Origin: a virus
DNA: 22,942 nucleotides
Reading direction: 5' to 3' (one strand)
IMG/VR virus record: IMGVR_UViG_3300044678_001940
Coordinates: 1-22,942 of that record
Both the position numbers and the translations under genes were made by a program. The notes below the pieces were generated by a model, which was not told the origin of the DNA, did no database searches, and saw only the letters and a list, made by a program, of their open reading frames with translations. Positions 8,238-22,076 of this stretch are shown piece by piece. Numbering within the stretch: the stretch's first letter is position 1; every line of letters begins with the position of its first letter.

Positions 8238-8417
8238 GTGAGCAACACAGGAACCACACAAGAGCGGCGGAAAGCGGTACAAATCACGATACTGCCAAGC
8301 GTTCACAAGGACATTATTGAACGGGCCGAGGAGCGTGGACAGCACCCCGGGCGGCTGGTGGAGTGGGCGTGGGGTGTTGCAAGCAAGCGCAAACCGGAGA
8401 CGGAACGCGCTAAGTAA
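8238..8417 (+). CDS. Ribbon-helix-helix-like small regulator (59 aa)
   Basis: The product has a basic N-terminus, a strand KAVQITILPS and two helices (VHKDIIERAEERGQ, then GRLVEWAWGVA), the layout of ribbon-helix-helix DNA-binding proteins such as Arc. First gene of the early operon, with a GTG six bases after a -10, which fits an early regulator; the target is unknown. The C-terminus is basic. The RHH call is from pattern only. Confidence 0.5.
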   Translation: MSNTGTTQERRKAVQITILPSVHKDIIERAEERGQHPGRLVEWAWGVASKRKPETERAK

Positions 8418-8422
8418 ACAGA

Positions 8423-8441
8423 CCACGCAATGCCGACGTGG
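8423..8441 (+). promoter_or_regulatory. AUGCCGAC hairpin H1
   Basis: Stem CCACG/CGTGG (8423-8427 with 8437-8441) around the loop CAATGCCGA. AGAGGGAG and the ATG at 8463 follow. One of four hairpins with the same loop and different stems. Confidence 0.65.
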
Positions 8442-8462
8442 GAAAGAGAGGGAGCAAATACT

Positions 8463-8732
8463 ATGCAAAAGATGTCAGACAGTGAACGCCTTGACGCTCG
8501 AATCAAGGCACGAAAAGCCGTCTTGGAGAACGTGGCGAGCTTCCATCGTTTTTGGCACGAAAAGAGGTATCTGGCGATGGGCGATGAGAAGCTATCACTG
8601 CCTGAGTACCTTTCCGCGTGCGTGCAGGACGTGGAAGTGTTTCTGTCGCTTGAATGGCAGCGCGATCTAGAAGCGCGCATAGAGGCATCACAGCGGCTAG
8701 AGGCCGAGTTCAATCGAGCATCGGCGATCTAG
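8463..8732 (+). CDS. Hypothetical helical protein (89 aa)
   Basis: Starts at ATG 8463 after AGAGGGAG at eight-base spacing; the open frame upstream begins inside hairpin H1 and is not coding. The protein is mostly helical with many Glu/Arg/Lys, Trp in FHRFWHEK and a final helix LEARIEASQRLEAEF. No family recognised. Confidence 0.6.
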   Translation: MQKMSDSERLDARIKARKAVLENVASFHRFWHEKRYLAMGDEKLSLPEYLSACVQDVEVFLSLEWQRDLEARIEASQRLEAEFNRASAI

Positions 8733-8752
8733 CCGTAACCACACAACACAAC

Positions 8753-8770
8753 CGCCCATGCCGACGGGCG
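8753..8770 (+). promoter_or_regulatory. AUGCCGAC hairpin H2
   Basis: Stem CGCCC/GGGCG (8753-8757 with 8766-8770), loop ATGCCGAC. AGGGAG at 8781-8786 and the ATG at 8792 follow. Stem bases differ from H1 while the loop core is identical. Confidence 0.65.
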
Positions 8771-8791
8771 CACAAAAGAGAGGGAGCAACT

Positions 8792-9028
8792 ATGACGACC
8801 TACGAGGTCAAGATGGGCGTGCCATTGCCAGGAATACGCCCGGCTAACGGAGCGCCAAAAGGTGCCTTCCGCCTAGCGTTAGAGGCCCTGCCACTGGGCG
8901 GAATGATTGAGGTGGAGGACACGGCATCCAACCGCAACCTAGCGTCAATTGTAAGGAAGAAGAGCCAACGCACGTTGACCGTGCGGAAGGTGTCAGACGG
9001 CCGACTCGGCATCTGGAGGACCGCATGA
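8792..9028 (+). CDS. Hypothetical small protein (78 aa)
   Basis: Starts at ATG 8792 after AGGGAG. It has a Pro-Leu-Pro-Gly-Ile N-terminal strand, Gly-Gly-Met-Ile-Glu-Val-Glu, and basic strands (RTLTVRKVSDGRLGIWRTA) with a small-domain DNA- or RNA-binding look. No family recognised. ATGA couples it to the next gene. Confidence 0.58.
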   Translation: MTTYEVKMGVPLPGIRPANGAPKGAFRLALEALPLGGMIEVEDTASNRNLASIVRKKSQRTLTVRKVSDGRLGIWRTA

Positions 9029-9261
9029 GCCTCGGAGCCACACGCTGCCCATCAAACGCCGCCGCGCTACCGCTGCCAGCCGGGGCAAAGCGCGCGGGGG
9101 AGCTGAACGACCGCTTGATGAAGCAAATGGACGCCGGTCCGGCGTATCACGACCTCTGGACGCGGGCCATTCGCGCCAACGATCGCGGCGACTTTGACGC
9201 GGTTGAGGTGCTACTTGAAGAGGCGCGCGCCATGGTTCAGGCTAACGGAGGCGCACTGTGA
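9025..9261 (+). CDS. Hypothetical protein (78 aa)
   Basis: A product with a Pro/Ala-rich start and a helical C-terminal half (residues 24-74) with Asp/Glu/Arg charge. Overlaps the preceding stop (ATGA) and the next GTG. No motif; unknown function. Confidence 0.55.
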   Translation: MSLGATRCPSNAAALPLPAGAKRAGELNDRLMKQMDAGPAYHDLWTRAIRANDRGDFDAVEVLLEEARAMVQANGGAL

Positions 9262-9395
9262 AGCCGAACGCCGACGAACTCAAGGCCGCTCGCTGCGGTG
9301 ACTATTGGGGCGCCATGCGCTCGATGAAGCGGCGCACGGGCGCGAGCTGGCATGCGGTTATTGCCGCGCTGCTGGCGGCTGGCGGTGCGGCATGA
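9258..9395 (+). CDS. Very small hypothetical protein (45 aa)
   Basis: Starts at GTG 9258 inside the previous stop. It encodes MKPNADELKAARCGDYWGAM and a helical end WHAVIAALLAAGGAA, then ATGA into the next gene. Only gapless coupling in both directions supports it. Confidence 0.42.
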   Translation: MKPNADELKAARCGDYWGAMRSMKRRTGASWHAVIAALLAAGGAA

Positions 9396-9505
9396 TCGGC
9401 TGGGGCGGCGGGCCGGAAGACCTGCGCATGCTGCAGCGGCGCTCGGATTGGATCGCGGCGGCGGCTGCGCTGGTGTGGGTGGTGGCTTGGGCGGTGACGC
9501 GATGA
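9392..9505 (+). CDS. Very small membrane protein (37 aa)
   Basis: One hydrophobic segment near the C-terminus (WIAAAAALVWVVAWAVTR) after a polar N-terminus. It is coupled by ATGA at both ends, so it is likely translated. Function unknown. Confidence 0.45.
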   Translation: MIGWGGGPEDLRMLQRRSDWIAAAAALVWVVAWAVTR

Positions 9506-9720
9506 AGAAGCACAAGGAATCATTGCCGCTGATTTACCGCTTGGCGGCAGGCATGACGCAGGAAGAGTTTGCAAAAAGCCTTGGCGGGTCTATCAAGACG
9601 GTCTCGAGATGGGAGGCCGGTGAGACTCAGCCATCTCTGAAACGCGAGCGGCAACTGTACGGACATTGCGCGGCATATCACATCGTCTACACCTGCCCTA
9701 TTTGCGAGGTGACGCGATGA
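9502..9720 (+). CDS. Cro/C1-type helix-turn-helix protein (72 aa)
   Basis: Residues 15-48 fit an XRE/Cro-CI HTH: GMTQEEFAKSLGGSIKTVSR then WEAGETQPS, with the usual recognition helix and Trp-Glu-x-Gly turn. The C-terminus has Cys-Pro-Ile-Cys, a possible metal knuckle. Small size suggests a Cro-like regulator. Starts at the ATG overlapping the preceding stop; the longer upstream frame is not supported. Confidence 0.68.
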   Translation: MKKHKESLPLIYRLAAGMTQEEFAKSLGGSIKTVSRWEAGETQPSLKRERQLYGHCAAYHIVYTCPICEVTR

Positions 9721-9962
9721 GCGGCCAACGGCGGGCGAATTGGCGGGCGGAAGCAGAAGGAATTGGCCGCGACGTGGAAGATCGGCTGATGCGACGGATT
9801 GAAGCGCTGGAAATGCGTGTGGAGGCACTGGCGCTTGCGCAAGACGGAAAGTTACTCAGTCTTGTTGATGTGCAGTCCAATCTGCGCCGGCTACGGTTTT
9901 CGCTCCTCGGTTTAGCTATCAGCCTCTTGCTGGTGATTGTCGCGGTGGCGGTGTCCCGATGA
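9717..9962 (+). CDS. Coiled-coil protein with C-terminal membrane anchor (81 aa)
   Basis: A long charged helix (residues 10-58) suits a coiled coil and ends in a strongly hydrophobic segment (about 60-80, LLGLAISLLLVIVAVAV). Topology resembles XhlA-like or signal-anchor phage membrane proteins, here in the early region. Overlaps its neighbours by ATGA. No family assigned. Confidence 0.5.
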   Translation: MSGQRRANWRAEAEGIGRDVEDRLMRRIEALEMRVEALALAQDGKLLSLVDVQSNLRRLRFSLLGLAISLLLVIVAVAVSR

Positions 9963-10141
9963 AAGCGCTGTATGGGGTACTTGCAGCCGCGAACGCCATC
10001 TGCGTTGTACTGAACCGGCGATCTCTGGCTTGGGGGATCGCGAATAACACGCCGTGGTGGTTGAACGCCTTGGCCGCTTTTGCGCTTGCGGTCACAGCGG
10101 CGGCTACGATCCACTGCTTTAAATCGGCGGTGAAGCGATGA
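9959..10141 (+). CDS. Small two-helix membrane protein (60 aa)
   Basis: Two hydrophobic segments (about residues 4-18 and 32-50) joined by a polar loop with Arg-Arg-Ser-Leu, then a basic end. Overlaps the upstream stop and the downstream ATG. Could be holin-like, but it lies among early genes, so a membrane accessory role is as likely. Confidence 0.45.
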   Translation: MKALYGVLAAANAICVVLNRRSLAWGIANNTPWWLNALAAFALAVTAAATIHCFKSAVKR

Positions 10142-10242
10142 GCCGGCGCCGCGACGATACGCCGGAGACTCTCATGCTCGCGCTCTGGCTGTGCTTTGCG
10201 CTGGCGATTGGCTCGTGGGGTTTGGAGGTGCTGGCATGGTGA
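10138..10242 (+). CDS. Very small membrane protein (34 aa)
   Basis: Basic N-terminus MSRRRDD followed by one hydrophobic helix (LMLALWLCFALAIGSWGLEV). It is coupled by overlaps to both neighbours. Third of three consecutive small membrane proteins in this stretch. Unknown function. Confidence 0.42.
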   Translation: MSRRRDDTPETLMLALWLCFALAIGSWGLEVLAW

Positions 10243-10448
10243 GAGACCCGAGGAAAGACCCGAGGCCGGGGGATGTCACGACGTACAGCGAACCGGGGCT
10301 GACGATTCTTTACCGCGTGACACGCCTACAGGGACGCCTGGTCTACTTTTTCGAGACGATCAATGGCGCAACCACCGAGCACGATACCTATGTAGAAGAT
10401 TGGATTGTTGGCTCAGAAACTGACGAGGTGCTGCATGTCGAAAGCTGA
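10236..10448 (+). CDS. DPRxDPRPGDVT-type small phage protein, paralogue A
   Basis: Starts MVRDPRKDPRPGDVTTYS, then a Val/Leu/Tyr-rich strand series and an end with Glu-Thr-Asp-Glu-Val-Leu-His-Val. The same N- and C-terminal signatures recur in the 12739-12945 gene, so these are paralogues within one phage. The Arg-Pro-Gly-Asp start with beta-rich body is a pattern I know from phage and environmental genomes, without known function. ATG 10236 overlaps the upstream stop. Confidence 0.6.
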   Translation: MVRDPRKDPRPGDVTTYSEPGLTILYRVTRLQGRLVYFFETINGATTEHDTYVEDWIVGSETDEVLHVES

Positions 10449-10641
10449 CGCCACATTCATCAACGCCCCCCGCTTCGACGCGTTGGCGGCGCATGTGCCG
10501 GACTGCGGAGCCGATGAGCTGGTGTACGAAATCGACCAGCTTATTTCCATAGCGAAGGACCGTGGACGGGTGGAAGTGGCCGCGCTGCTTAAAAAGGCGT
10601 TGGCGCAAGCGGTGAAGGAGCGCGAAGATGGGCGCGGTTAA
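10435..10641 (+). CDS. Hypothetical helical protein (68 aa)
   Basis: Starts at ATG 10435, 14 bp inside the previous gene. It is acidic with a Leu/Val-rich middle (DELVYEIDQLISIAKDRG) and a Lys/Arg C-terminal helix. No family recognised. Confidence 0.52.
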   Translation: MSKADATFINAPRFDALAAHVPDCGADELVYEIDQLISIAKDRGRVEVAALLKKALAQAVKEREDGRG

Positions 10642-10846
10642 TGACCAACGGCGCGAGCTCGGAGTGCCGACAATTGGCAGTCCAGAGAACACCGCAATGA
10701 TAGCGGCGGCGGCGCTTGACCAACTGATGCACGATGCGCGAAACGCCGGGCTACTAGCGCTAGTGGAAAAGCTGGACGCGGCGTTCCAGCAGGCGGTTGA
10801 AGATTGCAAGACAACAACGGAGGAATCATGTTTGAGCGAGCAGTAA
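10628..10846 (+). CDS. Hypothetical helical protein (72 aa)
   Basis: Overlaps the previous gene by 14 bp and the ATPase gene by 19 bp. Helical, Ala/Leu/Asp-rich centre and a Glu/Thr-rich end. No motif. Support comes from dense packing. Confidence 0.48.
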   Translation: MGAVNDQRRELGVPTIGSPENTAMIAAAALDQLMHDARNAGLLALVEKLDAAFQQAVEDCKTTTEESCLSEQ

Positions 10847-11715
10847 AGAGGAACGCAAAACTACGGTTTGCGATTTGCGGGCCGGCGGGCGGGGGCAAGA
10901 CCTATTCCCTGCTTGAATTGGCGAAGAACCTGGCTGGCGGCGGGAAGGTGGCCGTGATCGACACGGAACACGGCTCCGCCAGCAAGTACGCGGATCTGTT
11001 TGAGTTCGACGTGGTGGAGCCGTCCACATTTGACCCGCGCGAACTCGTCAAAACCCTTGACGCAGCCGTGGAGGGCGGCTATGCGGTCATCGTCGTGGAT
11101 TCGCTATCCCATTACTGGATGGGCAAGGGCGGCGAACTGGACATGGTGGACGCGGCGGCGAAGCGGTCGAGCGGCGGGAATACATTTGCCGCATGGAAGA
11201 ACGTCACGCCATACCATCAGGCGCTAGTGGACAAGATTCTATCCGCGAAGATTCACGTCCTCGTTTCCATGCGGACGAAAACCGAATGGGTGATAGAGGA
11301 AGTGAACGGCAAGCGGGCACCGCGCAAGGTCGGACTTGCGCCAGTCATGCGCGACGGCATTGAGTTCGAGTTTGACGTGTGCGGGGAGATCGACCAGGAC
11401 AACACCCTCACGGTCACCAAGTCGCGCTGCCCGAAGTTGAGCGGCGCGGTTATCAATCGGCCTGGGGTGGAGATGGCGGAAACGCTGCGCGAGTGGCTGC
11501 AAGGGGCGCCGGACGACCGGCCTGAGCCGCCAGCGTGGGCACCGAATGAGCCGATGATTGCGGCGTTCACGGAAGCGGCCAAAGAGCTATCTGCCGATGA
11601 TGTGATGGCGACATTGAACGACTTCGGCGTGGCGCGGCCGCAGGACTTCACAGAAAAAGCACAAGCAACCGCCTGCTATAAGGCGCTCATGGCGAAAGCC
11701 GGAAAGGCCCAATAA
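10828..11715 (+). CDS. RecA-fold ATPase, Sak4-like recombinase (AAA_24 type)
   Basis: A 295-residue protein with Walker A GPAGGGKT (18-25), a VIDTEHGSASKY segment that binds the nucleotide side, and Walker B VIVVDS (87-92). The layout matches the phage AAA ATPase family that includes Sak4, a RecA-fold protein promoting single-strand annealing or repair. Position directly upstream of ssb, as in many Sak4 phages, supports the role. ATG 10828 follows a GGAGGAA site; an ATG 24 bp upstream lacks this. The C-terminal region after about 240 is an extra helical part. Confidence 0.78.
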   Translation: MFERAVKRNAKLRFAICGPAGGGKTYSLLELAKNLAGGGKVAVIDTEHGSASKYADLFEFDVVEPSTFDPRELVKTLDAAVEGGYAVIVVDSLSHYWMGKGGELDMVDAAAKRSSGGNTFAAWKNVTPYHQALVDKILSAKIHVLVSMRTKTEWVIEEVNGKRAPRKVGLAPVMRDGIEFEFDVCGEIDQDNTLTVTKSRCPKLSGAVINRPGVEMAETLREWLQGAPDDRPEPPAWAPNEPMIAAFTEAAKELSADDVMATLNDFGVARPQDFTEKAQATACYKALMAKAGKAQ

Positions 11716-12144
11716 ATGGCATCACGAAGCATAAACAAAGTAACCCTCATCGGGCACCTGGGAAAAGACGCGGAGGGGAAGTTCACGCCGTCCGGCGTGC
11801 ATGTGGCGCGGTTTTCAGTGGCGACCAGCCGTCGGTGGAAAGACAAGGGCTCGGACGAGTGGAAAGAGGAGACGGAGTGGACGAACGTATCCCTATGGCG
11901 CTCTGAAAACCTTGTGCCGTATCTCACCAAGGGGAAGCAGGTCTACGTTGAAGGGCGTTTGCAAACTCGCAGCTATGACAAGGACGGGGAAAAGCGGTAT
12001 TCGACGGAAGTGGTGGCGGACGAGGTGATTCTGCTGGGCGGCGGTGGCGAGAAGCAGGACGGAGGCGGGCTGGTGAGCCAGCCGCGCACGGCACAGCGAC
12101 CGCCCATCGACAGCGGTATCTCAGACGACGACGTTCCCTTCTGA
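11716..12144 (+). CDS. ssb: Single-stranded DNA-binding protein
   Basis: A 142-residue OB-fold protein opening SRSINKVTLIGHLGKDAEGK, then VARFSVATSRRW, TEWTNVSLW, KGKQVYVEGRLQTRSY and a final DDDVPF. These are the standard strands of bacterial/phage SSB, and the acidic Phe-ended tail recruits partner proteins. The gene begins the base after the ATPase stop, so the two are likely cotranscribed and coordinated. It coats single-stranded DNA during replication and annealing. Confidence 0.95.
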   Translation: MASRSINKVTLIGHLGKDAEGKFTPSGVHVARFSVATSRRWKDKGSDEWKEETEWTNVSLWRSENLVPYLTKGKQVYVEGRLQTRSYDKDGEKRYSTEVVADEVILLGGGGEKQDGGGLVSQPRTAQRPPIDSGISDDDVPF

Positions 12145-12338
12145 TCTCCGCGGGCAACCGCCCGCGGCCTGCCGTTCCAAATCAGCGCACGATCTCGGAA
12201 ATCCGCGCGGGACGGCAGACCGGGCGCGAAAAGCTCCCGGAAAAGAGGTAGTCCGTCACGAACCACTGAAAACCTGTTGGATTTGGATTCTTGAGGCGGG
12301 CCGGGGAGACACTGGCCCGCTGAAAACAAAGGAGAGTT
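12145..12338 (+). other. 194-bp structured noncoding region after ssb
   Basis: Largest gap of the early operon. It contains three stems: CCGCGGGC/GCCCGCGG (12148-12155 with 12160-12167, AACC loop), a 7-bp outer stem CTGCCGT/ACGGCAG (12169-12175 with 12212-12218), and GCGGGCC/GGCCCGC (12296-12302 with 12314-12320). AAGGAG (about 12329-12334) and the next ATG follow. No T-run follows the stems, so it is not a simple terminator. No good open frame. Confidence 0.55.
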
Positions 12339-12557
12339 ATGCCACGCGAAACATGCCATTGCGGAGAGTGCCAACGGTGCCACCGACGCGCGTATATGGC
12401 CGCGTGGCGATGGCGGAAGATCCGCGGGCCGCTACCTGCAGCATGGGCGGCGCAAGCGCCGACGGAAGACTGGCAGTTGCAACGCTACATCTGCCCGTTG
12501 GCAGAGATGGCCAAATACGAGTTTGGCCGCAAGACGACGCGGCCGGCGGCGGAATAG
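12339..12557 (+). CDS. Cys/His-rich zinc-binding protein (72 aa)
   Basis: The N-terminus has CHCGECQRCHRR, four Cys and a His close together as in a small zinc ribbon or knuckle, followed by a Trp-rich basic helix (MAAWRWRKIRG). The rest is helical and hydrophilic. A strong AAGGAG site precedes the ATG. Likely nucleic-acid or protein binding; exact role unknown. Confidence 0.6.
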   Translation: MPRETCHCGECQRCHRRAYMAAWRWRKIRGPLPAAWAAQAPTEDWQLQRYICPLAEMAKYEFGRKTTRPAAE

Positions 12558-12566
12558 GAGAGGGAC

Positions 12567-12749
12567 ATGGAAATAGCAACGATCGGACTGTTTTTGCTGG
12601 GCGGCGGCGCCTACCTGCGCTGGAAGCCAACGCGGGCGCAGGCGTGGAACTACATCGCGGCCTGGGCGGCGGCGAATCGGGACGCGGCGATAACGCGGGA
12701 AGCGAAGATGCGGGAGTATTTGGAAGCGGAGGTGAAGCGTGGAGCGTGA
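12567..12749 (+). CDS. Small protein with N-terminal membrane segment (60 aa)
   Basis: Residues 1-17 are hydrophobic (MEIATIGLFLLGGGAYLRW), the remainder helical and basic to acidic. A good ribosome binding site (AGGAGAGGG) precedes the ATG. Could be a short membrane anchor or a signal-anchor. Overlaps the next GTG by 11 bp. Confidence 0.5.
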   Translation: MEIATIGLFLLGGGAYLRWKPTRAQAWNYIAAWAAANRDAAITREAKMREYLEAEVKRGA

Positions 12750-12945
12750 CCCGAGGAACGACCCGAGGCCGGGGGATGTAACGAAAGAAAAGAGCATGTT
12801 TGGCGAGTCGATTATCCGAGTGACAAATCGCGACGGGGATATCGTCAGTTTCATTGTCGGCACTGGTCTAGGAATGGACATGTCTCTCTCGTGGTGGATC
12901 GAGACATCGGAGAGCGACGAGGTGCTGTATGTCGCAGGAGCGTAG
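12739..12945 (+). CDS. DPRxDPRPGDVT-type small phage protein, paralogue B
   Basis: Begins MERDPRNDPRPGDVTKEKS and ends SESDEVLYVAGA, with Asn for Lys in the shared DPRxDPRPGDVT signature of the 10236-10448 gene. The middle strands differ in sequence but follow the same Val/Ile/Phe pattern and a Trp-Trp-Ile-Glu pair near the end. GTG start. Paralogue of A; unknown function. Confidence 0.62.
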   Translation: MERDPRNDPRPGDVTKEKSMFGESIIRVTNRDGDIVSFIVGTGLGMDMSLSWWIETSESDEVLYVAGA

Positions 12946-13498
12946 CGCGGAGTGGTTGAGAGGTGCCCGCGAAGAGGTTCGCCGCCTAGAAGGGGAATGC
13001 GACGTGGTATTTCGTGGCGAGCCGCACATCACTCGCATGGCCTTGTGTGAGCGCGCGGAGGAACTGAAAACCCTTCTCGCCGAAGCCGAAGCCCGCGAGG
13101 CCAGCGTGCCCACGGCGGCGGACCTTGCTGTGGCGGACGAGCTGGACATGCTGGCCGCTCATATCCAGCAGTACATCGGACCAGACGACGCCCGCGATGA
13201 CATCCGGCGTATCTGCCGCAACCGGGCTGAGGACTTGCGGCGTGGGGTGAAGCGCGGGCCGTCAGCTGCAACCGGCACGGGTACCCTCACGCTCTCCGAA
13301 ACCATCGCCGGACTGCGGGAAGCCTGCGCCGGGGTGGTGGTGTCGAAGCATGAGGAGATCACGGCGGCGGAGGTGATCGCGGCGGCGGAGCGGGCGCTGC
13401 GGTGTGGGAAGTGGGAGCATTTTACTTCAGATGAGAGGGAAATGATGGCCGCCGCTTTCGCCGCAATCGCCAAATGGAAAGAGGCACACAATGCGTGA
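12929..13498 (+). CDS. Hypothetical coiled-coil/helical protein (189 aa)
   Basis: Mostly helical, with Arg/Glu-rich repeats (VRRLEGECDV, EELKTLLAEAEARE) and a Cys-containing N-terminal half; the C-terminal third (about 125-189) is Ala-rich with KHEEITAAEVIAAAERAL. No catalytic motif found. ATG start overlaps the preceding gene by 17 bp and the end overlaps the next ATG. It could be two small helical domains fused. Confidence 0.55.
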   Translation: MSQERSAEWLRGAREEVRRLEGECDVVFRGEPHITRMALCERAEELKTLLAEAEAREASVPTAADLAVADELDMLAAHIQQYIGPDDARDDIRRICRNRAEDLRRGVKRGPSAATGTGTLTLSETIAGLREACAGVVVSKHEEITAAEVIAAAERALRCGKWEHFTSDEREMMAAAFAAIAKWKEAHNA

Positions 13499-14114
13499 AA
13501 CACTCAAAGAACTCGCCGGTGATCTGCAAATGATCCACCAATTCCTGGAACAATCGGAGGCCGTTGAGCGGCAGTTGGGTCAGTATTGGCGTGAGCATGA
13601 AGCCGAGCGCGACCAACTCCGCGCCGAGGTGGAGCGGCTGCGGGGACAATCCAAGGCGGCGCTGTTGAACGCGAAGCAGTCGCAGGACGGATGGAGCGAA
13701 GCGTTGAAGCTGCGTGACTCTGCCACCGCCAGAGCCGAAGTCGCCGAGCGGGAATGCGTGGAGTACATTGACTACCGAAACCAAGCGGTCATCAGTCGGA
13801 ACGCGATGGAGCGGGAGCGAGACGAGGCCAGGGCCCACGCCGAAGACCTTTGCGGGGCGCTGAGTGACGAGCTGAGTTGGGCGCGTGCTTATGGACCATG
13901 CCAAGCCCCACACGTCAAGCGCTGCATGTGCCCGCATTGCGTGACAGAGAGGTCTAAAGCCGCCCTCGCCCGCACCCCGGCGCAGTCGCTGGGACGGATT
14001 AAGGCGGAGGCGTTGCGGGAGGAAATAACAGCGTTCGTTGCGTTATTCGGGCCTGCTGCCGGTGACGCACTAGAAGCCGAAGCCGACCGACTGGAGGCCA
14101 CCGATGGACGCTAA
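13491..14114 (+). CDS. Coiled-coil protein with CxCPxC motif (207 aa)
   Basis: Long heptad-like helix from about residue 15 to 130 with Leu/Glu/Arg/Gln, then Cys-Met-Cys-Pro-His-Cys (near 144-149), a possible zinc site, and a helical end. Similar coiled-coil phage proteins are unknown in function. Its start overlaps the previous gene by 8 bp. Confidence 0.55.
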   Translation: MRETLKELAGDLQMIHQFLEQSEAVERQLGQYWREHEAERDQLRAEVERLRGQSKAALLNAKQSQDGWSEALKLRDSATARAEVAERECVEYIDYRNQAVISRNAMERERDEARAHAEDLCGALSDELSWARAYGPCQAPHVKRCMCPHCVTERSKAALARTPAQSLGRIKAEALREEITAFVALFGPAAGDALEAEADRLEATDGR

Positions 14115-14394
14115 ACGGCTGGAGGAGTTGGCGCAGAAGTGCAAGGAAGCAATAGAGTCGCCTGAGTATTGGCTGGACAACTTTCTACAAACGGAGGACA
14201 TCGCCGACCTAGCCCGCTGCGCTGCGGCTTGGGCGAAGGTGGAGCGGAGTATCAACCCGATGATTGAACGCCGGAACTGGCCGCAAGGGGCTAAGTGGTA
14301 TTTTCGGCCAGGTGGCCGATCTACTGGTAGCGGCGACACCGCCATCGCCGCTGTCGAAGCCGCGCAGGAGGTGACTGATGCGAACAAAGGCTGA
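14104..14394 (+). CDS. Hypothetical protein (96 aa)
   Basis: Helical at both ends, with Trp-rich NPMIERRNWPQGAKWYFRPG in the middle, and a polar Gly/Ser stretch. Overlaps the upstream gene by 11 bp. No family recognised. Confidence 0.5.
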   Translation: MDAKRLEELAQKCKEAIESPEYWLDNFLQTEDIADLARCAAAWAKVERSINPMIERRNWPQGAKWYFRPGGRSTGSGDTAIAAVEAAQEVTDANKG

Positions 14395-14569
14395 GGCGCT
14401 GGCGAAGCCGATGGCTGGGGATCGTTGGACAAACAAAAAAGGCGTAGAGCGGTACGTGACGAAAATAGAAGATGAGCGAATTGTGTTTTTCAACACGGAC
14501 AGCTCGGTGTACGCGGATAGGTTCCGCCGCTGGGCCGCGAACGCCGAGTACCTAGGCGGTGCGGAATGA
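14378..14569 (+). CDS. Hypothetical small protein (63 aa)
   Basis: A basic N-terminal helix, then RWTNKKGVERYVTKIEDERI and a strand-rich end with Phe/Tyr (FFNTDSSVYADRFRRW). The compact beta-rich core suggests a small fold of the SH3-like type seen in phage early genes, but this is only a guess. Overlaps both neighbours. Confidence 0.5.
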   Translation: MRTKAEALAKPMAGDRWTNKKGVERYVTKIEDERIVFFNTDSSVYADRFRRWAANAEYLGGAE

Positions 14570-14745
14570 TCCGCCGCGTCCGCATGGCCCGCAAGCGGCT
14601 GGCGATTGCGCGGGAGCAGGCGAAAGCAACTCTCCAGCGTTACTATTCACTGCCAAGCGGAGAACGGCAGCGAGTGTACTGGAAAAAAGAGCGGCGCATG
14701 AATCAGGCATGGGCTGTGGTTCGCAGGAAAGAGAGGATTGCATGA
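14566..14745 (+). CDS. Small basic helical protein (59 aa)
   Basis: Encodes MIRRVRMARKRLAIAREQAK and a similar basic C-terminal half (RQRVYWKKERRMNQAW). ATGA couplings at both ends support translation. Strong positive charge suggests nucleic-acid binding, unproven. Longer frames through this stretch belong to shadow reading. Confidence 0.5.
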   Translation: MIRRVRMARKRLAIAREQAKATLQRYYSLPSGERQRVYWKKERRMNQAWAVVRRKERIA

Positions 14746-15083
14746 ATTGGACAAGAGCGCACGACGTATGGATTGCCGAGCATTGCGAGGGACTGGAGGT
14801 ATCGACCGAGTTTGCCGCGGAGCCGCACGAGATCCGTTTTAACGGGCCGTGGAAGCCCGTCGCCACCTACAACACCGACCCAGCCGCCTGCATCCGCGCG
14901 GCTGAGGCGTGGCGGAAGAAAGGCGAAGGGCGGTATTACAGCTTTAGGTCAGAGCAAAACGACGGCGGCATATTGTTCCAAGAACACGCGGTTTGCTTTT
15001 CCTCGTTTGCGAAGTTTGGCAGCGCGGACGGTCCATCCGCCCTCGCCCAAGCACTATACCGCGCCACCGGAGGGCCAGCATGA
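14742..15083 (+). CDS. Hypothetical protein (113 aa)
   Basis: Starts at ATG 14742 (MNWTRAHDVWIAEHCEGLEV), the ATGA overlap with the preceding gene; the frame continues upstream but that part is a shadow. It has a Trp/Cys-containing first half, a polar turn with SFRSEQNDGGIL and a helical end. The phrase DVWIAEHCEG and spacing resemble phage proteins I cannot name. Unknown function. Confidence 0.55.
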   Translation: MNWTRAHDVWIAEHCEGLEVSTEFAAEPHEIRFNGPWKPVATYNTDPAACIRAAEAWRKKGEGRYYSFRSEQNDGGILFQEHAVCFSSFAKFGSADGPSALAQALYRATGGPA

Positions 15084-15202
15084 AGACCATGTGGTTTTGG
15101 AACTCGCAGGTAGGCCCATGGCGCTGCTGGGGCCTGTGGTACAAGCAGCGGTGGTTTGCGGGGCTGTCAATTGTGCGTAAAGGAGAGGAGTGGAAACTGT
15201 GA
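15080..15202 (+). CDS. Small Trp-rich protein (40 aa)
   Basis: MKTMWFWNSQVGPWRCWGLW and a basic tail RKGEEWKL, with eight Trp in 40 residues. Coupled to the previous and next genes by overlaps. No family recognised; may be membrane-interacting. Confidence 0.42.
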   Translation: MKTMWFWNSQVGPWRCWGLWYKQRWFAGLSIVRKGEEWKL

Positions 15203-15441
15203 TTCACGAACTGAAAACCCTACCAGAATACTGGGATGCGGTAAACAGCGGGGCGAAGCCATTCGAGGTTCGCACGAACGACCGAGATTTCAAGGTTGGC
15301 GACATCCTTCACCTGTACCGATCGGTAGATGCCGACTTCTACGGCGCGGAGTTCATGGAGTTGGCCGTAACCTACGTTCTGTCTGGTGGCAAGTTTGGCA
15401 TTGAACCGGGGTACGTGGTGATGGGGCTGGGGGAGGTATGA
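15199..15441 (+). CDS. DUF3850-like ASCH/PUA-fold protein (80 aa)
   Basis: Starts at GTG 15199 (GTGA overlap), nine bases after AGGAGAGGAG; an in-frame GTG at 15190 sits on the site itself. The product MIHELKTLPEYWDAVNSGAK, FEVRTNDRDFKVGDILHLYR and the strand-turn to YVVMGLGEV follow the DUF3850 pattern, a small ASCH/PUA-related fold. Known members are small phage proteins with putative nucleic-acid binding. No catalytic residues are evident. Confidence 0.7.
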   Translation: MIHELKTLPEYWDAVNSGAKPFEVRTNDRDFKVGDILHLYRSVDADFYGAEFMELAVTYVLSGGKFGIEPGYVVMGLGEV

Positions 15442-15773
15442 ATACCCTCCGACTAACTCGCGCCGAATCCGCCGCCTACACCAACGGCGAGCGGCGGATC
15501 TGGCGGGCGATGCGGAAGCAGCCGCGCGTCGGAATCCGTGGCGACGGCTCGATCATCCACCCGGAGTATTTGGTTTGGGAGGACAAGGGAGACATCATTC
15601 CGCTTACTCCAAGCTGCATGTACCGGATTACCCGGCGCTGTCCCTACGGCCAGCCCGGCGATTTGGTGAAGCTGTCCGGTGGCGAAGTGGTCGAGGGCGT
15701 GTTTATGATCTCCGCCATCACCGTCGAGCAGCGCGGCGGGCGCTGGGGCTGGGTTGTGGAGGTGGGGGCATGA
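15438..15773 (+). CDS. ASCH-like phage protein (111 aa)
   Basis: Contains RAMRKQPRVGIRGDG near residues 23-37 and CPYGQPGDLVKL (about 69-80), the Cys-Pro-Tyr-Gly-x-Pro-Gly-Asp signature of a common family of phage ASCH-like proteins. Those are thought to have a PUA-like nucleic-acid-binding fold. It follows the DUF3850-like gene, so two ASCH-type proteins may be adjacent. Product role not known. Confidence 0.55.
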   Translation: MNTLRLTRAESAAYTNGERRIWRAMRKQPRVGIRGDGSIIHPEYLVWEDKGDIIPLTPSCMYRITRRCPYGQPGDLVKLSGGEVVEGVFMISAITVEQRGGRWGWVVEVGA

Positions 15774-15934
15774 CCCGCCAACCGCCGGCCCTCGCCCGCA
15801 TCGCCGAACTTGAGCGAGTCTACGCCGACGAATACCCGACGGCGCCGCGGGCGGAGCGCAAGCGCTGGGCGGTGGAAGGCGCGCAGTATGAGGCCGATGA
15901 GCGGGACGCGATAAAGAACGAAGGCAGCGAATGA
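15770..15934 (+). CDS. Small helical protein (54 aa)
   Basis: Begins MTRQPPALARIAELERVYAD, then an acidic-basic helix to the end. ATG 15770 overlaps the upstream stop; the end overlaps the next ATG. No family recognised. Confidence 0.48.
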   Translation: MTRQPPALARIAELERVYADEYPTAPRAERKRWAVEGAQYEADERDAIKNEGSE

Positions 15935-16113
15935 AGTGGGGTTGGAGCAGAAGCGACGCGAAAACTTGGCGTTTCAACGCTGATTGGAGCGTCGTTTATG
16001 ACGGCCACCGGTGGTATGTCGTTTGGGCCGGGAATTGGCTACACGAGGATTACGGGAGCGATGCGCTGGCAATCGCCGCGGCCGAAGCCAAAATGATTGA
16101 CTGGAAATTTTAA
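15931..16113 (+). CDS. Hypothetical small Trp-rich protein (60 aa)
   Basis: Strand-rich start (MKWGWSRSDAKTWRFNADWS, VVYDGHRWYVVWAG) and a short helix at the end. The repeated Trp and turns suggest a compact beta sheet. ATGA couples it to the gene before. Unknown function. Confidence 0.52.
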   Translation: MKWGWSRSDAKTWRFNADWSVVYDGHRWYVVWAGNWLHEDYGSDALAIAAAEAKMIDWKF

Positions 16114-16117
16114 CAAC

Positions 16118-16138
16118 CAGGTCAATGCCGACGGCCTG
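16118..16138 (+). promoter_or_regulatory. AUGCCGAC hairpin H3
   Basis: Stem CAGGTC/GGCCTG (16118-16123 with 16133-16138, one G-U pair), loop AATGCCGAC. AGAGGAGAG and the ATG at 16156 follow. The stem differs from the other copies. Confidence 0.62.
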
Positions 16139-16155
16139 AACGAAAGAGGAGAGAA

Positions 16156-16626
16156 ATGCCACGAATACCATGGAAGCCGGGCGACCCATGCCCGCGATGC
16201 AAACAGCCCGTGTATTCACGGGAGGATATGTACAAGGTAAGCCACAACGCCTGCCGTCCATGCGGCCAGCAGGCGCGGCGAGAGTACTTAGATGCAAAAA
16301 AAGAAGCGACGCCGTCCGAGCGTAACTGCGAGGATTGCAGTGCGTTTATAAGTGGCCTGACCACAGCCACCCGCTGTGCTGCATGCGTGGCAAAGAGACG
16401 CGCTGAAGGTGCCCGCCGAGGTACTGAAGCGATGATGGAAAAGCGCCGGTCAGAGCGCGAGATGCGCGAGGCTACTCGCGGACCGGTGGATGCGCCGCGG
16501 CCGGTGCGTAACGCGGGCGCGGCGTACAAGGGATTGCGCGGGGGGCCTGATTGTGAATGGGCAACGCTGGAGGACGTGGGTAATTCGGTGGCGCGCTGGG
16601 CTACGTTGGATGGGGGGCGGGTGTGA
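16156..16626 (+). CDS. Multi-Cys zinc-finger protein (156 aa)
   Basis: Pairs Cys-Pro-Arg-Cys, Cys-Arg-Pro-Cys, Cys-Glu-Asp-Cys and Cys-Ala-Ala-Cys in the first 80 residues can hold two zinc ions, as in an HNH-like or recruiter domain without the HNH residues. A basic helix follows, then a Gly/Asp-rich end. The start lies after AGAGGAGAG, 17 bases past hairpin H3, and the end overlaps the helicase GTG, so it is probably functionally linked to it. Target unknown. Confidence 0.65.
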   Translation: MPRIPWKPGDPCPRCKQPVYSREDMYKVSHNACRPCGQQARREYLDAKKEATPSERNCEDCSAFISGLTTATRCAACVAKRRAEGARRGTEAMMEKRRSEREMREATRGPVDAPRPVRNAGAAYKGLRGGPDCEWATLEDVGNSVARWATLDGGRV

Positions 16627-17993
16627 GCGGCTACCGGGCGTTTCTTGACGGCAAGCACGTTCAGCCGCAACCATCCGGCATTCCCGGAGAGTTTGACCTG
16701 AACAGCAAACTTTTCGGCTTCCAAAAGCAGAGCATCACGCGGGCTCTGAACGTTGGTAAGTTCGCACTCTTTACGGAGTGCGGGAGCGGCAAGACCGCCA
16801 TGCAGGCGGAATGGGCGCGGCAGGTCTGCCAGCATACGGGCGGCGATGCGCTGATACTGGCACCGTTGGCGGTGACCGCGCAGACCGTGGCAGAGGGCGC
16901 GAAGTTTGGCGTTGAGATCACGCAGTGCCGAAGTCAGAAGGACGTGCGGACGGGTGTGAACGTCGCCAACTACGACATGCTGAAGCATTTCGACGCGGGC
17001 CGCTTCGACGCCATCGTACTGGACGAGTCGAGCATCCTAAAGAACTTCACCGGTGCGACCAGGCGGCTACTGCAAGACTCGTTTGCGAGCACGCCCTACA
17101 AGCTGTGTTGCTCGGCTACGCCGTCGCCAAACGATCACATGGAGCTAGGCAACCACTCGGAGTTTCTCGACATCATGAGCGGCGGGCAAATGCTTATGCG
17201 ATGGTTCCTGAACGACACCATGAAGGCGGGCGGCTACCGGCTGAAAGGCCACGCCGAAGCTGACTACTGGCGGTGGGTGGCGTCGTGGTCAGTGTGCATG
17301 GAAAAGCCGTCAGACCTTGGGTTTTCTGACGACGGCTGGAATATGCCCGAGTTGCGCATTCATGAGGAGATTGTAGCCGTCGATCAATCCATCAACGCCA
17401 ACGGCCAACTGTTCCGGGTGGCGGACGTATCGGCGACGGGACTGCATCGGGAGATGCGGCTGACGGCGCCGGCGCGGGCCGCGCGCGTTGCCGAGATCAT
17501 CGGCGACTCGAAAGAGCCGTGGTGTATCTGGTGCAACACCAACTACGAGGCCGACGAACTGATGCGCGTGATCGACGGAGCCATCGAAGTGCGCGGCGAC
17601 GAGCGGACGGAGGCGAAAGAGGAGAAGCTACTGGGATTCACAAACGGCGCGTTCCAGCGCATCGTCACGAAGCCATCAATCGCGGGTTTCGGCATGAACT
17701 GGCAGCACTGCAACCGTCACATCTTTTGCGGGCTGTCCTACTCCTACGAACAGTTCTATCAGGCCGTGCGCCGGTCCTGGCGGTTCGGTCAAACTCGGCC
17801 GGTTGACGCCTACATGGTCATCGCGGAGACGGAAGGCCCCGTCCTCAAAACGATCCGCGAAAAGCAAAAGAAGCACGAAGAAATGAAAGCGGCCATGGTT
17901 CACGCGATGGCGGCAATTCAAAACGGTACCGGGCGGCGCCAGCTTGCATCGGCCGTCGGCACAAAGCAAATGAATCTTCCGAGGTGGATCTAA
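16623..17993 (+). CDS. SNF2-like SF2 DNA helicase/ATPase
   Basis: A 456-residue protein with a Walker A variant ECGSGKT (52-58), DESS as the DEAH-like box II (134-137), SAT motif III (164-166) and a C-terminal motif VI containing RFGQ (387-390), characteristic of SNF2-type proteins. Two RecA-like lobes use ATP to translocate on DNA. Phages often carry this beside a methyltransferase and RusA. It is probably a replication or recombination helicase. GTG start overlaps the upstream gene and the stop shares one base with the methyltransferase ATG. Confidence 0.85.
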   Translation: MSGYRAFLDGKHVQPQPSGIPGEFDLNSKLFGFQKQSITRALNVGKFALFTECGSGKTAMQAEWARQVCQHTGGDALILAPLAVTAQTVAEGAKFGVEITQCRSQKDVRTGVNVANYDMLKHFDAGRFDAIVLDESSILKNFTGATRRLLQDSFASTPYKLCCSATPSPNDHMELGNHSEFLDIMSGGQMLMRWFLNDTMKAGGYRLKGHAEADYWRWVASWSVCMEKPSDLGFSDDGWNMPELRIHEEIVAVDQSINANGQLFRVADVSATGLHREMRLTAPARAARVAEIIGDSKEPWCIWCNTNYEADELMRVIDGAIEVRGDERTEAKEEKLLGFTNGAFQRIVTKPSIAGFGMNWQHCNRHIFCGLSYSYEQFYQAVRRSWRFGQTRPVDAYMVIAETEGPVLKTIREKQKKHEEMKAAMVHAMAAIQNGTGRRQLASAVGTKQMNLPRWI

Positions 17994-18985
17994 TGAACGT
18001 GATTTTAGACGAGCGGCACGGCCGCAACTGGGCGCTCTACAACGGCGACTGCTGCGAAGTCATCAAGGGCATTCCCGATGAGTCGGTAGACCTGACGGTG
18101 TTTTCGCCGCCGTTTTCCAGCCTGTACATGTACTCTGACTCCGAGGCCGATATGGGCAACTGCGCGAGCGATGAGGAGTTCTTTGCGCACTTCGGATTCC
18201 TTGCGCCTGAACTACTTCGCGTGACGACGACTGGGCGGTTGTGCGTGATGCACGTTAAGGACCTGCCGACGTATCGGAATAGTGACGGCGCCAGCGGCCT
18301 ACGCGACTTCCCAGGCCAGTGTATCGCCGCCATGGAGCGCGCCGGGTGGGCGTTCCATAGCCGGGTGACGGTGTGGAAGTGCCCGGTGACGGAGCGGGAA
18401 CGGACCAATAACAACGGGCTCCTCCATAAAACCGTCATGCGTGATTCTTCGCAGATCCGGCAGGGAATGGCTGACTACGTGCTGGCCTTTCGCAAGACGC
18501 CCCCAGGTGACAATCTCAGCACGAAGCCGATTGAGCGGCCGACTGGGTTCGAGCGGTATATCGGCGACGCGGCGCAAGATCCGCGCGAAACCGACCAGCA
18601 CCCTTCGAAATACGCCCGCAAAGGCCGCGACGGGCGGACAAGCGTGGAGATTTGGCGGCGGTACGCGGAGCCGGTGTGGTGGGACATCGACCAGACGGAC
18701 GTGCTGAACTTTCGCATCGCCCGCGACGAAAAGGACGAGAAGCACATCTGCCCGCTGCAGCTCGGGTTGATTCGCCGGTGCCTGGAACTGTGGTCCTCGC
18801 CGGGCGACGTCGTGCTATCGCCGTTCGCCGGTGTTGGCTCGGAGGGGTTTGTTGCGCTGGACGAAGGCCGCAAGTTCATCGGGATTGAGCTGAAGCCGGG
18901 TTACTTTTCAACGGCGATTAAACACCTGGAAAGCGCGGAGGCATATGCCGGCGCTCAAGGAGGGCTATTCGATGCCATCGACTGA
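17993..18985 (+). CDS. DNA methyltransferase (adenine N6 or cytosine N4 type)
   Basis: A 330-residue protein with motif IV SPPF (38-41) preceding motif I FAGVGSEG (278-285), and IEL nearby; this order fits beta-class methyltransferases. The four-residue catalytic core transfers a methyl group from S-adenosylmethionine to an exocyclic amine. The target base (N6-adenine or N4-cytosine) cannot be decided from SPPF alone. No restriction partner is visible, so self-protection or regulation is likely. Starts at ATG 17993 (TAATG), nine bases after an in-frame GTG. Confidence 0.82.
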   Translation: MNVILDERHGRNWALYNGDCCEVIKGIPDESVDLTVFSPPFSSLYMYSDSEADMGNCASDEEFFAHFGFLAPELLRVTTTGRLCVMHVKDLPTYRNSDGASGLRDFPGQCIAAMERAGWAFHSRVTVWKCPVTERERTNNNGLLHKTVMRDSSQIRQGMADYVLAFRKTPPGDNLSTKPIERPTGFERYIGDAAQDPRETDQHPSKYARKGRDGRTSVEIWRRYAEPVWWDIDQTDVLNFRIARDEKDEKHICPLQLGLIRRCLELWSSPGDVVLSPFAGVGSEGFVALDEGRKFIGIELKPGYFSTAIKHLESAEAYAGAQGGLFDAID

Positions 18986-19160
18986 CAACCCTATCGCCAC
19001 CGCCCAGCGCGAACAGCGAGAAGCGGCGGCGCGGTACACGATCAAGCAGCAGCGCGAAGCCGCGAAACGCTGGCGAAAAGACAGGCACCCCGGCGCCTGG
19101 GATGGCCTGTGCGATTGGCTTATGGAAGAGTGCCTGTTATCGCAGGAGGCCGCAAAATGA
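18972..19160 (+). CDS. Small helical protein (62 aa)
   Basis: ATG 18972 follows GGAGGG at seven-base spacing, better than the upstream in-frame ATG at 18945. It is a long helix (AQREQREAAARYTIKQQ) with a C-terminal Trp/Cys/Leu segment (WDGLCDWLMEECL). Basic middle; no motif. Overlaps the methyltransferase end by 14 bp. Confidence 0.52.
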   Translation: MPSTDNPIATAQREQREAAARYTIKQQREAAKRWRKDRHPGAWDGLCDWLMEECLLSQEAAK

Positions 19161-19471
19161 CCCGCCCATGGACCCTAGCTGAATCCCGCACCATCGCCGA
19201 GCGCGTGATGGAGTGGCAGGTATTCGAGTTCCGCGGGCGACTGGTCCGCGTCGATGGCGGAATGGTTCCAGACTGGCCACATACTGACGCGGGCGAGGTG
19301 CTGGCGGCGATACAGATGGACGGGTGGCGCGTCGAAGGCTTCTGGACGGGGGCGAGCCATACGTTCTGCGTGCGGCTGCGGCACCCGATCACCAAAGACG
19401 CAGCCGAGGGTAACGCGCGGGAGTGGTTCGAGGCCGTGATGCTGGCGGTGTTGGCGGCGGTGGAGGGATGA
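19157..19471 (+). CDS. Phage ABA-sandwich-like protein (104 aa)
   Basis: Starts MTRPWTLAESRTIAERVMEW and contains a PDWPHTDAGEVLAAIQMDGW stretch, then a strand series and a C-terminal helix with Ala/Val/Leu. The arrangement resembles the phage ABA sandwich domain, common on phage genomes with unknown function. ATG 19157 overlaps the prior stop. Assigned by resemblance only. Confidence 0.48.
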   Translation: MTRPWTLAESRTIAERVMEWQVFEFRGRLVRVDGGMVPDWPHTDAGEVLAAIQMDGWRVEGFWTGASHTFCVRLRHPITKDAAEGNAREWFEAVMLAVLAAVEG

Positions 19472-19671
19472 GGGATTTCCACCAATACGCCGATGAGCCA
19501 CTGAAGCCATATTTGCCAAATTCCATGCGGCGACTTGGGCACAAGGCAGATGGAGCGATTGCGGTGAGGCAGCGGAGCCACGTGCAGGCTGATTGGACAT
19601 GGGAGGAGATGTTTATGCAGGACGATGAGGCCAGAAAAACCATTCGATATCCACGCGGTGAGAGGCCATGA
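19468..19671 (+). CDS. Hypothetical protein (67 aa)
   Basis: Starts at ATG 19468 (ATGA overlap), MRDFHQYADEPLKPYLPNS, then a basic loop and an acidic Trp-rich segment. No family recognised. The end overlaps the RusA start. Confidence 0.52.
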   Translation: MRDFHQYADEPLKPYLPNSMRRLGHKADGAIAVRQRSHVQADWTWEEMFMQDDEARKTIRYPRGERP

Positions 19672-20093
19672 GGCCGCCCGACGTCGAACTCGTCGTCCTT
19701 GGCGTGCCAGGGCCGCAAGGCTCGAAGCGGCACGTAGGCGACGGGCGCATGATCGAATCCAGTAAGAAGGTGAAGCCGTGGCGGGATTCCGTGGCGTGGG
19801 CTGCGCGGGAAGCCATGGCGGGACGGCCGCCGATTGATGGGCCTGTGCGGTGCCAGATGGTGTTCATTTTTCCGCGGCCGAAGTCTCGCAAGCGCACGGC
19901 GCTGCATGACCGCAAGCCGGATCTATCAAAGCTCATCCGGTCAACAGAAGACGCGCTGACCACGGGAGGGGCCTGGGCGGACGATGCGCGGGTGGTGGAG
20001 TATGTGACCACATGCAAGCGGTACGCCGATGAGATGCCACCGGGCTCAATTACGAGCGGCGCCGCGATCCGGATATGGCGGGCCACGCCATGA
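19668..20093 (+). CDS. rusA: RusA-family Holliday junction resolvase
   Basis: A 141-residue protein with the RusA signature: GPQGSKRHVG near the start, then H-DRKPDLSKLIRSTEDAL (Asp85, Asp95) and WADDARVVEY with Asp105/Asp106. The conserved acidic residues bind metal and cut four-way DNA junctions. Length fits the family. Partners nearby are the Sak4-like ATPase, SSB, helicase and methyltransferase, together a recombination and replication set. It starts at an ATG overlapping the previous stop. Confidence 0.88.
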   Translation: MRPPDVELVVLGVPGPQGSKRHVGDGRMIESSKKVKPWRDSVAWAAREAMAGRPPIDGPVRCQMVFIFPRPKSRKRTALHDRKPDLSKLIRSTEDALTTGGAWADDARVVEYVTTCKRYADEMPPGSITSGAAIRIWRATP

Positions 20094-20263
20094 CCATCCT
20101 CGACCAACTCAAGCGCGCCGGCGCCGTGCTGGTGCGCCAAAAGAATCACCAGGTGTGGCGCTTGCCTAACGGACGGCGCTACGTGATAGCGAAGACGCCT
20201 AGCGATGGGCGGGCGGGCAGGAATCAGTCGGCCGTGCTGAAACGGCTGATGCGGGCGAAGTAA
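20090..20263 (+). CDS. HicA-like dsRBD-fold small protein (57 aa)
   Basis: The product MTILDQLKRAGAVLVRQKNH, then QVWRLPNGRRYVIAKTPSD and a basic helix, follows the HicA/YcfA layout, including the His at position 20 and the strand-turn. HicA proteins are RNA-cleaving toxins of the HicAB pair. No HicB antitoxin is found next to it, so an inactivated or repurposed version is likely. ATG 20090 overlaps the RusA end. Confidence 0.6.
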   Translation: MTILDQLKRAGAVLVRQKNHQVWRLPNGRRYVIAKTPSDGRAGRNQSAVLKRLMRAK

Positions 20264-20267
20264 ACGG

Positions 20268-20288
20268 GGCCGCTATGCCGACGCGGCC
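20268..20288 (+). promoter_or_regulatory. AUGCCGAC hairpin H4
   Basis: Stem GGCCGC/GCGGCC (20268-20273 with 20283-20288), loop TATGCCGAC. AGGGAG at 20296-20301 follows, then ATG 20305 and the replication ATG 20330. All four copies precede purine-rich ribosome binding sites. Confidence 0.65.
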
Positions 20289-20304
20289 GAGAAAGAGGGA
20301 GCAG

Positions 20305-20346
20305 ATGAAGCGAGAACAGGGGTGCGGCTATGGCACGCGCCCGTAA
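20305..20346 (+). CDS. Possible 13-residue leader peptide
   Basis: ATG 20305 is three bases after AGGGAG and encodes MKREQGCGYGTRP, ending in TAA at 20344. It overlaps the replication-gene start (20330) in another frame. Short, so weak evidence; it may couple or attenuate translation of the next gene, or be a by-product of the ribosome binding site. Confidence 0.3.
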   Translation: MKREQGCGYGTRP

Positions 20347-21331: not shown

Positions 21332-21800
21332 TCGCGGGACGGCCACCGCCCAGCTCAACCGCATGTCGAATCTCCAGGGGTTCGGCTTCATGGCACCGGA
21401 GACGTTCACCTCGCTCATTGACGTTCTCGCCAGCCACTCCGACGATGCGGCGCACGCTCGGGCGGCGGTGGATCTCATACTGGGCCGCAAATCGCTTCCA
21501 ACGGGGCCGCAAGAAATCGCGGACGCGCTGAACGAGGCGAAGCATGGGCAGCCGGTAAACGAAGCTCCTCGGGCAAATACGGGAGGGTGCGGGCGCGAGG
21601 TGCCTGGGCTCACGTATTGGGACTACGATCCAAACTCGCGCGGGCTCGAAAAGATCCACCACCCGGCACGATGCGCAGGTGGAGAAATCCGCGTCACCAA
21701 GTGGGTACGGGTGCAGGGCATGGTGGACGAGCAGGGCAACCAGCTCAAACAGCCGTACGAGTTCAGCGCGAAATGCCGTTGCGCTGGGGGCACGCTATGA
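21321..21800 (+). CDS. Protein after the replication initiator (159 aa), possible loader or partner
   Basis: The first 70 residues are helical (ETFTSLIDVLASHSDDAAH, then RAAVDLILGRKSLP); the second half has Cys at several spots (GGCGREVP, RCAGG, KCRCAGG) that could bind zinc. No Walker A is present, so it is not DnaC-like. In lambda the gene after O is P, the helicase loader; position suggests a similar job but sequence does not show it. Overlaps the upstream stop by 11 bp. Confidence 0.5.
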   Translation: MPCNRGTATAQLNRMSNLQGFGFMAPETFTSLIDVLASHSDDAAHARAAVDLILGRKSLPTGPQEIADALNEAKHGQPVNEAPRANTGGCGREVPGLTYWDYDPNSRGLEKIHHPARCAGGEIRVTKWVRVQGMVDEQGNQLKQPYEFSAKCRCAGGTL

Positions 21801-22000
21801 GCGAAGAGGACGAAGAGTTGCTGTACGCTCGGTTGACGACAATGCGTAGGGAAATAAAGGAGTTACGACGACACAGCAACCTGATGCAACGCATCTTAGC
21901 GGACCAATCCGCGACGATGGCTGCGCTGTGGGAAGCGCTACGGGTTGCGACGGCGAAGAAAATATTACACGTGAGGCTTGACACTGTGAAAAAAAAATAG
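21797..22000 (+). CDS. Small coiled-coil protein (67 aa)
   Basis: Highly charged helix through residues 4-50 (EEDEELLYARLTTMRREIKE), then a basic end KKILHVRLDTVKKK. Starts at ATGA overlap. The end carries a TTGACA that may be a promoter for the next gene. Unknown function. Confidence 0.55.
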   Translation: MSEEDEELLYARLTTMRREIKELRRHSNLMQRILADQSATMAALWEALRVATAKKILHVRLDTVKKK

Positions 22001-22006
22001 CGTAAT
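21978..22006 (+). promoter_or_regulatory. Probable internal promoter before the 22077 gene
   Basis: TTGACA (21978-21983), 17-bp spacer, CGTAAT (22001-22006). The -35 is consensus and the -10 four of six. Transcription would begin about 22013, just before a hairpin-rich leader. Confidence 0.5.
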
Positions 22007-22012
22007 GGAAAT

Positions 22013-22063
22013 AAGCCGTAAGGCTCCCCCGGTGGGGAAAATCACCGCCAGCCCTCACGGGCT
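22013..22063 (+). promoter_or_regulatory. Three-hairpin leader RNA
   Basis: AGCC-GTAA-GGCT (22014-22025), CGGTG/CACCG with 8-base loop (22030-22047) and AGCCC-TCAC-GGGCT (22050-22063), directly followed by GAGGAG at 22071. The first has a GNRA-type tetraloop. May control translation of the next gene. Confidence 0.5.
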
Positions 22064-22076
22064 CCCAATCGAGGAG

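Follow-up and report, generated by a model that had tools for sequence, protein, structure and literature searches.

The SAS/ESAS elements of cluster K mycobacteriophages are repeated, asymmetric elements located just before the starts of many unrelated phage genes, mostly in one orientation and with inverted repeats in about half of them; SAS is a 13-mer, GGGATAGGAGCCC, and ESAS consists of conserved 17-bp arms separated by a variable spacer of 4-13 bp (PMC3203893). Phage elements of this repeated, start-associated kind have been known since 2011, and as late as 2025 their role was still called unverified (PMC3203893, PMC12699233). The gene 43 operator of phages T4 and RB69 is a leader hairpin upstream of the ribosome binding site (RBS), in which loop bases are important for binding; the T4 operator serves one autoregulated gene, is bound by the phage's own DNA polymerase and carries a -UAAC- loop (PMC3014915). 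In the Com-mom system of phage Mu, a small zinc-finger protein activates the translation of a phage gene by binding a hairpin-loop close to its start, the loop motif being CC(N)2-3GAG and lying beside an inhibitory structure (PMC6483171). Cluster O mycobacteriophages carry 17-bp palindromic repeats, many per genome and often intergenic, which are linked to gene gain and loss (PMC4351075). The element that we describe here appears to work like start-associated elements and hairpin operators, and agrees with none of the described systems in every respect.

The window, by which we mean the whole 22,942-base stretch of DNA analysed (virus record IMGVR_UViG_3300044678_001940), matches no isolate phage closely at the DNA level. 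Its rightward operon runs from 8238 to 22869 and encodes, among other products, an AAA ATPase, SSB, a helicase, a DNA methylase, RusA and a replication initiator; an HTH ORF lies at 9502-9720, and a polymerase gene was not recognised in the window. The operon genes overlap for the most part, leaving just five gaps longer than 40 bp. Four of these gaps are each filled by one hairpin (H1-H4), followed by a purine-rich RBS and then a start codon. The gap count from 8238 to 22869 thus agrees with the preliminary description of this DNA, and all four hairpins reported there were confirmed by position. The features of the five gaps are as follows.

Gaps longer than 40 bp between 8238 and 22869: 8418-8462, 8733-8791, 12145-12338, 16114-16154 and 20264-20304.
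8423..8441, plus strand: hairpin H1 (site A), CCACG[CAAUGCCGA]CGUGG, with the 5-bp stem CCACG/CGTGG and loop CAATGCCGA; the stem begins 5 nt past the stop of the 8238-8417 ORF.
8445..8465, plus strand: site A RBS AGAGAGGGAGCA and ATG 8463 of an 89-aa ORF.
8753..8770, plus strand: hairpin H2 (site B), CGCCC[AUGCCGAC]GGGCG, with stem CGCCC/GGGCG and loop ATGCCGAC; it begins 20 nt past the upstream stop.
8776..8794, plus strand: site B RBS AAGAGAGGGAGCA and ATG 8792 of a 78-aa ORF.
12296..12320, plus strand: hairpin of the remaining gap (the fifth-gap hairpin), GCGGGCC[GGGGAGACACU]GGCCCGC, with stem GCGGGCC/GGCCCGC and loop GGGGAGACACT.
16118..16138, plus strand: hairpin H3 (site D), CAGGUC[AAUGCCGAC]GGCCUG, with stem CAGGTC/GGCCTG, including one U-G pair, and loop AATGCCGAC; the stem begins 4 nt past the upstream stop.
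16142..16158, plus strand: site D RBS GAAAGAGGAGAGA and ATG 16156 of a zinc-ribbon-like 156-aa gene (16156-16626).
20268..20288, plus strand: hairpin H4 (site E), GGCCGC[UAUGCCGAC]GCGGCC, with stem GGCCGC/GCGGCC and loop TATGCCGAC; it begins 4 nt past the upstream stop.
20291..20346, plus strand: site E RBS GAAAGAGGGAGCA and the 13-codon ORF MKREQGCGYGTRP (ATG 20305).

The AUGCCGA(C) loop that had been proposed as common to the hairpins is present in all four copies, except that H1 pairs the final C of AUGCCGAC, shifting its loop by one. The distances from stem end to ATG (21, 21, 17 and 16 nt for H1 to H4) fall within the 16-21 nt given previously; the ATG behind H4, however, opens the 13-codon ORF and no long gene. 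This short ORF overlaps the replication initiator (start 20330) and is kept in several relatives. The motif ATGCCGAC occurs five times in the window against 1.2 copies expected, a count reached in one of 100 shuffles, and the fifth copy, at 15329, falls within coding sequence and has no stem. The stability of the leaders is ordinary within the window (z between -0.9 and +0.35), and since single leaders are not unusually stable, the evidence for the element is comparative rather than thermodynamic. Folding predictions for the window copies leave the purine-rich RBS mostly unpaired. Intrinsic terminator-like sites on the plus strand were not found at H1-H4, where the stems run into purines.

We scanned IMG/VR for related contigs both by pattern and by protein, obtaining several dozen, and built a covariance model (R1) from 12 aligned copies. 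R1 recovers the four window hairpins at E-values from 6.9e-13 to 1.5e-9 (H1, 44.0 bits, E=1e-10; H2, 39.7 bits, E=1.5e-9; H3, 40.7 bits, E=8.1e-10; H4, 51.8 bits, E=6.9e-13), and its next match in the window has E=0.36. The sequence GGCCGC[AAGACGAC]GCGGCC at 12525-12544, where a coding region ends and the next start follows shortly, could be a degenerate copy but was not accepted (E=2.3). R1 yields 133 matches in 89 related IMG/VR loci, counts that include loci from one and the same contig and a few weak matches arising by chance; the strong matches lie on the gene strand. The longer contigs of the phage group (22-44 kb) contain one to five significant copies each.

The loop proved to be conserved in relatives: among 53 distinct copies it reads (N)W(T)RCCRAC, with the CC and the A invariant, and it is carried on 18 distinct 5-bp stems. 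In the copies compared, the start codon follows the stem end by 12-24 nt, mostly 14-21, and the stem starts 0-13 nt past the upstream stop in most of them (20-24 nt at site B). The RBS (GAAAGRGGGAGCA) is part of the conserved module.

In the alignment of model matches, standard pairs occupy 94% of the pair cells, compared with 51% after shuffling, and the covariation score is 0.82, compared with 0.19 (sd 0.03) for shuffled alignments and at most 0.29 for the slid control. On both measures, paired percentage and covariation, the real alignment lies above all shuffled and all slid controls. The hand-picked copies from which the model was built are paired in 100% of cells, versus 54% after shuffling. 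Since the alignment of matches leans to the model, we used as an independent control patterns of loop plus RBS that are silent on the stem. Stems of at least 5 bp accompany 29 of 32 such matches inside the group and 5 of 65 outside it, the outside set being other viruses and bacterial genomes (p=2.5e-16, a value that overstates independence because the group members are closely related). Among the distinct stems G-U outnumbers A-C mismatches 7 to 1, as predicted for sense RNA. The group itself is narrow (helicase 93-100% identical), so the copies are not independent of each other. Most of the covariation is found between different sites of one genome, that is, between paralogous copies, and few clean double changes occur inside one orthologous site; at the third pair of site A, the window has A-U where L265 has G-C, with loop and register unchanged. 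A stem pair is broken in some orthologues (site D in L040, L043 and L014; site A in L136 and L128), and the site C stem of L057 differs from the minimum-energy fold.

Such mismatched orthologous stems, together with the shared RBS, which may mark the copies as duplicates, are what would be expected if RBS leaders had been repeated by chance or descent only, with loop and stem functionless. We regard this as highly improbable in view of the 18 distinct stems with 94% of cells paired, the invariant loop core and the outside matches without stems. The stems are different and still complementary, as the preliminary description had it. Its proposal of a cis-acting RNA element of the phage finds good support in the many further copies that the covariance search recovered, in the conservation of the loop, and in pairing and covariation above all controls; neither of the outcomes that it had named as refuting was observed.

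Like SAS/ESAS, the window element is tied to the starts of genes of different families, with a similar distribution. No match to the SAS 13-mer was found in the window within 2 mismatches, and unlike in ESAS, the arms of the window group are 5-6 bp long and variable (18 stems), whereas the loop, corresponding to the spacer, is conserved. The element shares with the T4 gene 43 operator the form of a conserved-loop leader hairpin upstream of the RBS, but is common to several unrelated genes and has the loop core RCCRAC instead of -UAAC-. As in Mu Com-mom, one of the downstream genes is Mom-like, and a zinc-ribbon gene is encoded in the same operon. In contrast to Mu, GAG occurs in no loop variant and an inhibitory structure over the RBS was seen in none of the folds made; the zinc-ribbon proteins gave no match to the Com family, just weak sub-threshold zinc-ribbon matches. 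The many copies per phage genome, their often intergenic location and their link to gene gain and loss recall the cluster O repeats, which differ from the window element in having invariant arms and no clear orientation, and in not being closely tied to starts (PMC4351075).

At one and the same site, the downstream gene is exchanged while the element stays. Site A precedes the 89-aa ORF, a 265-aa ORF or, in L265, another unrelated ORF. Behind site C lies a Mom-like protein (PF25680, phrog_1384), one of three kinds of C5-methyltransferase (two recognised by Pfam match and one by sequence reading), or a zinc-ribbon gene, and site E is followed either by the 13-codon ORF with the replication initiator or by a gene of 311, 93 or 163 aa. 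The genes after the element are not translationally coupled to the upstream gene. The zinc-ribbon gene just upstream of the operon-type helicase is accompanied by the element in 30 of the 30 contigs holding that region with enough upstream sequence, several of which are near-duplicates. In L052 and L067, where the helicase lies in another genome context, the element is absent upstream; the helicase of these two contigs is 94-96% identical and is the first gene behind an apparent promoter. We also observed three contigs in which the site C hairpin is fused directly to the site D zinc-ribbon gene (L046, 5094-5133; L062, 9395-9434; L074, 9434-9473). The junction in L046 and its kin carries a shared GAAAGGGAGCA and resembles a crossover within the shared RBS.

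The swapping of non-homologous genes right behind the element could reflect a function at the DNA level, either as a recombination linker at module borders or as a protein-binding inverted repeat that enables gene exchange, and a within-module crossover predicts junctions like that of L046 and its kin. A linker would have to be identical in sequence, yet the stems vary from site to site without losing complementarity, the orientation is always that of the gene, and the spacing to the start is narrow. We therefore consider a DNA-level function very unlikely, and gene exchange may be a by-product.

The conserved loop, the variable complementary stem, the narrow distance to an open RBS and the unrelated genes downstream point to a loop-recognised RNA element acting at the level of translation. 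Our best explanation, to which we give a little better than an even chance, is that the hairpin is a sense-strand leader RNA element governing translation initiation and probably bound at its loop by a putative trans-acting protein. Each hairpin would act in cis within the mRNA leader, its variable but complementary stem of 5-6 bp presenting the fixed loop (core RCCRAC) upstream of the start codon. A putative RNA-binding protein, coded by phage or host, would read this loop, and its binding would alter 30S loading on all these genes together. We lean towards repression of early accessory genes in the manner of the T4 operator, as the element looks open by default, with its stem on the upstream border of the initiation footprint; activation in the manner of Mu Com is nearly as likely. 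Since the stem is mostly situated 0-13 nt past the upstream stop, it would be covered by a ribosome terminating there, and the state of the element may in this way be tied to upstream translation.

The preliminary description had inferred binding by a protein, a ribosome or a processing enzyme. A leader structure that needs no protein, with the hairpin alone serving as a 5' stabiliser, as a ribosome standby or insulator past the stop, or as a gene-uncoupling barrier, would account for the frequent start of stems 0-13 nt past the upstream stop and for the fifth gap. The hairpin there precedes AAAGGAGAGTT-ATG 12339 with the same architecture as H1-H4; its loop differs, so that it is not a member by loop. 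In the relatives L136 and L176 its stem reads GCTGGCC/GGCCAGC, a double change from G-C to U-A. All five gaps longer than 40 bp therefore have a hairpin just before the RBS, one of them with an unrelated loop, which favours the hairpin as such at these places. The invariant CC-A loop core of the 53 distinct copies, on stems that vary, is left unexplained by a protein-free structure, which we judge to be unlikely.

Processing sites are common in intercistronic gaps, and both the location of the element and its conserved loop would suit an mRNA processing or decay site at which a phage or host nuclease reads the loop and cuts, providing each cassette with its own 5' end. We find this doubtful, and quite unlikely overall: the element keeps its spacing relative to the start codon and RBS, the RBS lies within the conserved module, and, for RNase III, a stem of 5-6 bp is short. 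Translation initiation is favoured over processing by the fixed distance to the RBS. Two further ideas were rejected. A start codon or mini-ORF in the loop disagrees with relatives in which AUG is replaced by AAG, CAG, AUA or UUG, and with the differing frames; pairing of the loop with UCGGCAU at 9006 was dropped, the complement being UUGGCAU in L136.

Control of translation initiation through the loop could extend to a phage-wide translational regulon, in which one putative RNA-binding protein reads the loop common to exchangeable cassettes, a tentative proposal that we rate as rather unlikely. DNA-modification genes (Mom-like and several C5-methyltransferases) would in that case plug into a conserved hairpin-RBS socket and so come under common control, and the zinc-ribbon protein, whose own gene always has the element in the operon-type contigs seen, would be a candidate for an autoregulatory reader. 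The element also suggests how unrelated anti-restriction genes might be exchanged in phages yet keep a common control. That its loop is fixed while the complementary stems vary points to recognition as RNA, which makes the role of such start-associated elements directly testable, and the element could yield a new orthogonal RNA-protein pair.

The element appears to be confined to one group of uncultured phages and is, as far as we checked, undescribed. No convincing copies were found in helicase relatives of at most 60% identity, nor did a search of sister phages, whose helicases are 45-60% identical, turn up any other convincing loop recurring ahead of starts. The element is absent from more distant Mom relatives (58-67%) and was not found in isolate phages. 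Rfam gave no match at the gathering threshold across the window, and nothing at E<=1 for 8400-8830 and 20240-20340. Among 84,980 bacterial and archaeal species, with one genome each, the pattern used gave chance-level matches only; 53 stretches from bacterial genomes were rejected as copies, about 60 being expected by chance according to our own estimate and most being without stems. The matches in L121 (4-bp stem, followed by a capsid-like gene) and L022 are probably due to chance as well.

A hairpin of the form TGTCTC[TATGCCGAC]GAGACA is present inside the Mom-like gene (L036, 4358-4395; L057, 537-558), soon after the site C element and start codon, and may represent a second site or a chance occurrence. 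Finally, L070, a contig more diverged than most, contains a new site at 3004-3037, where the element, with a shorter RBS, precedes an endonuclease-like gene.
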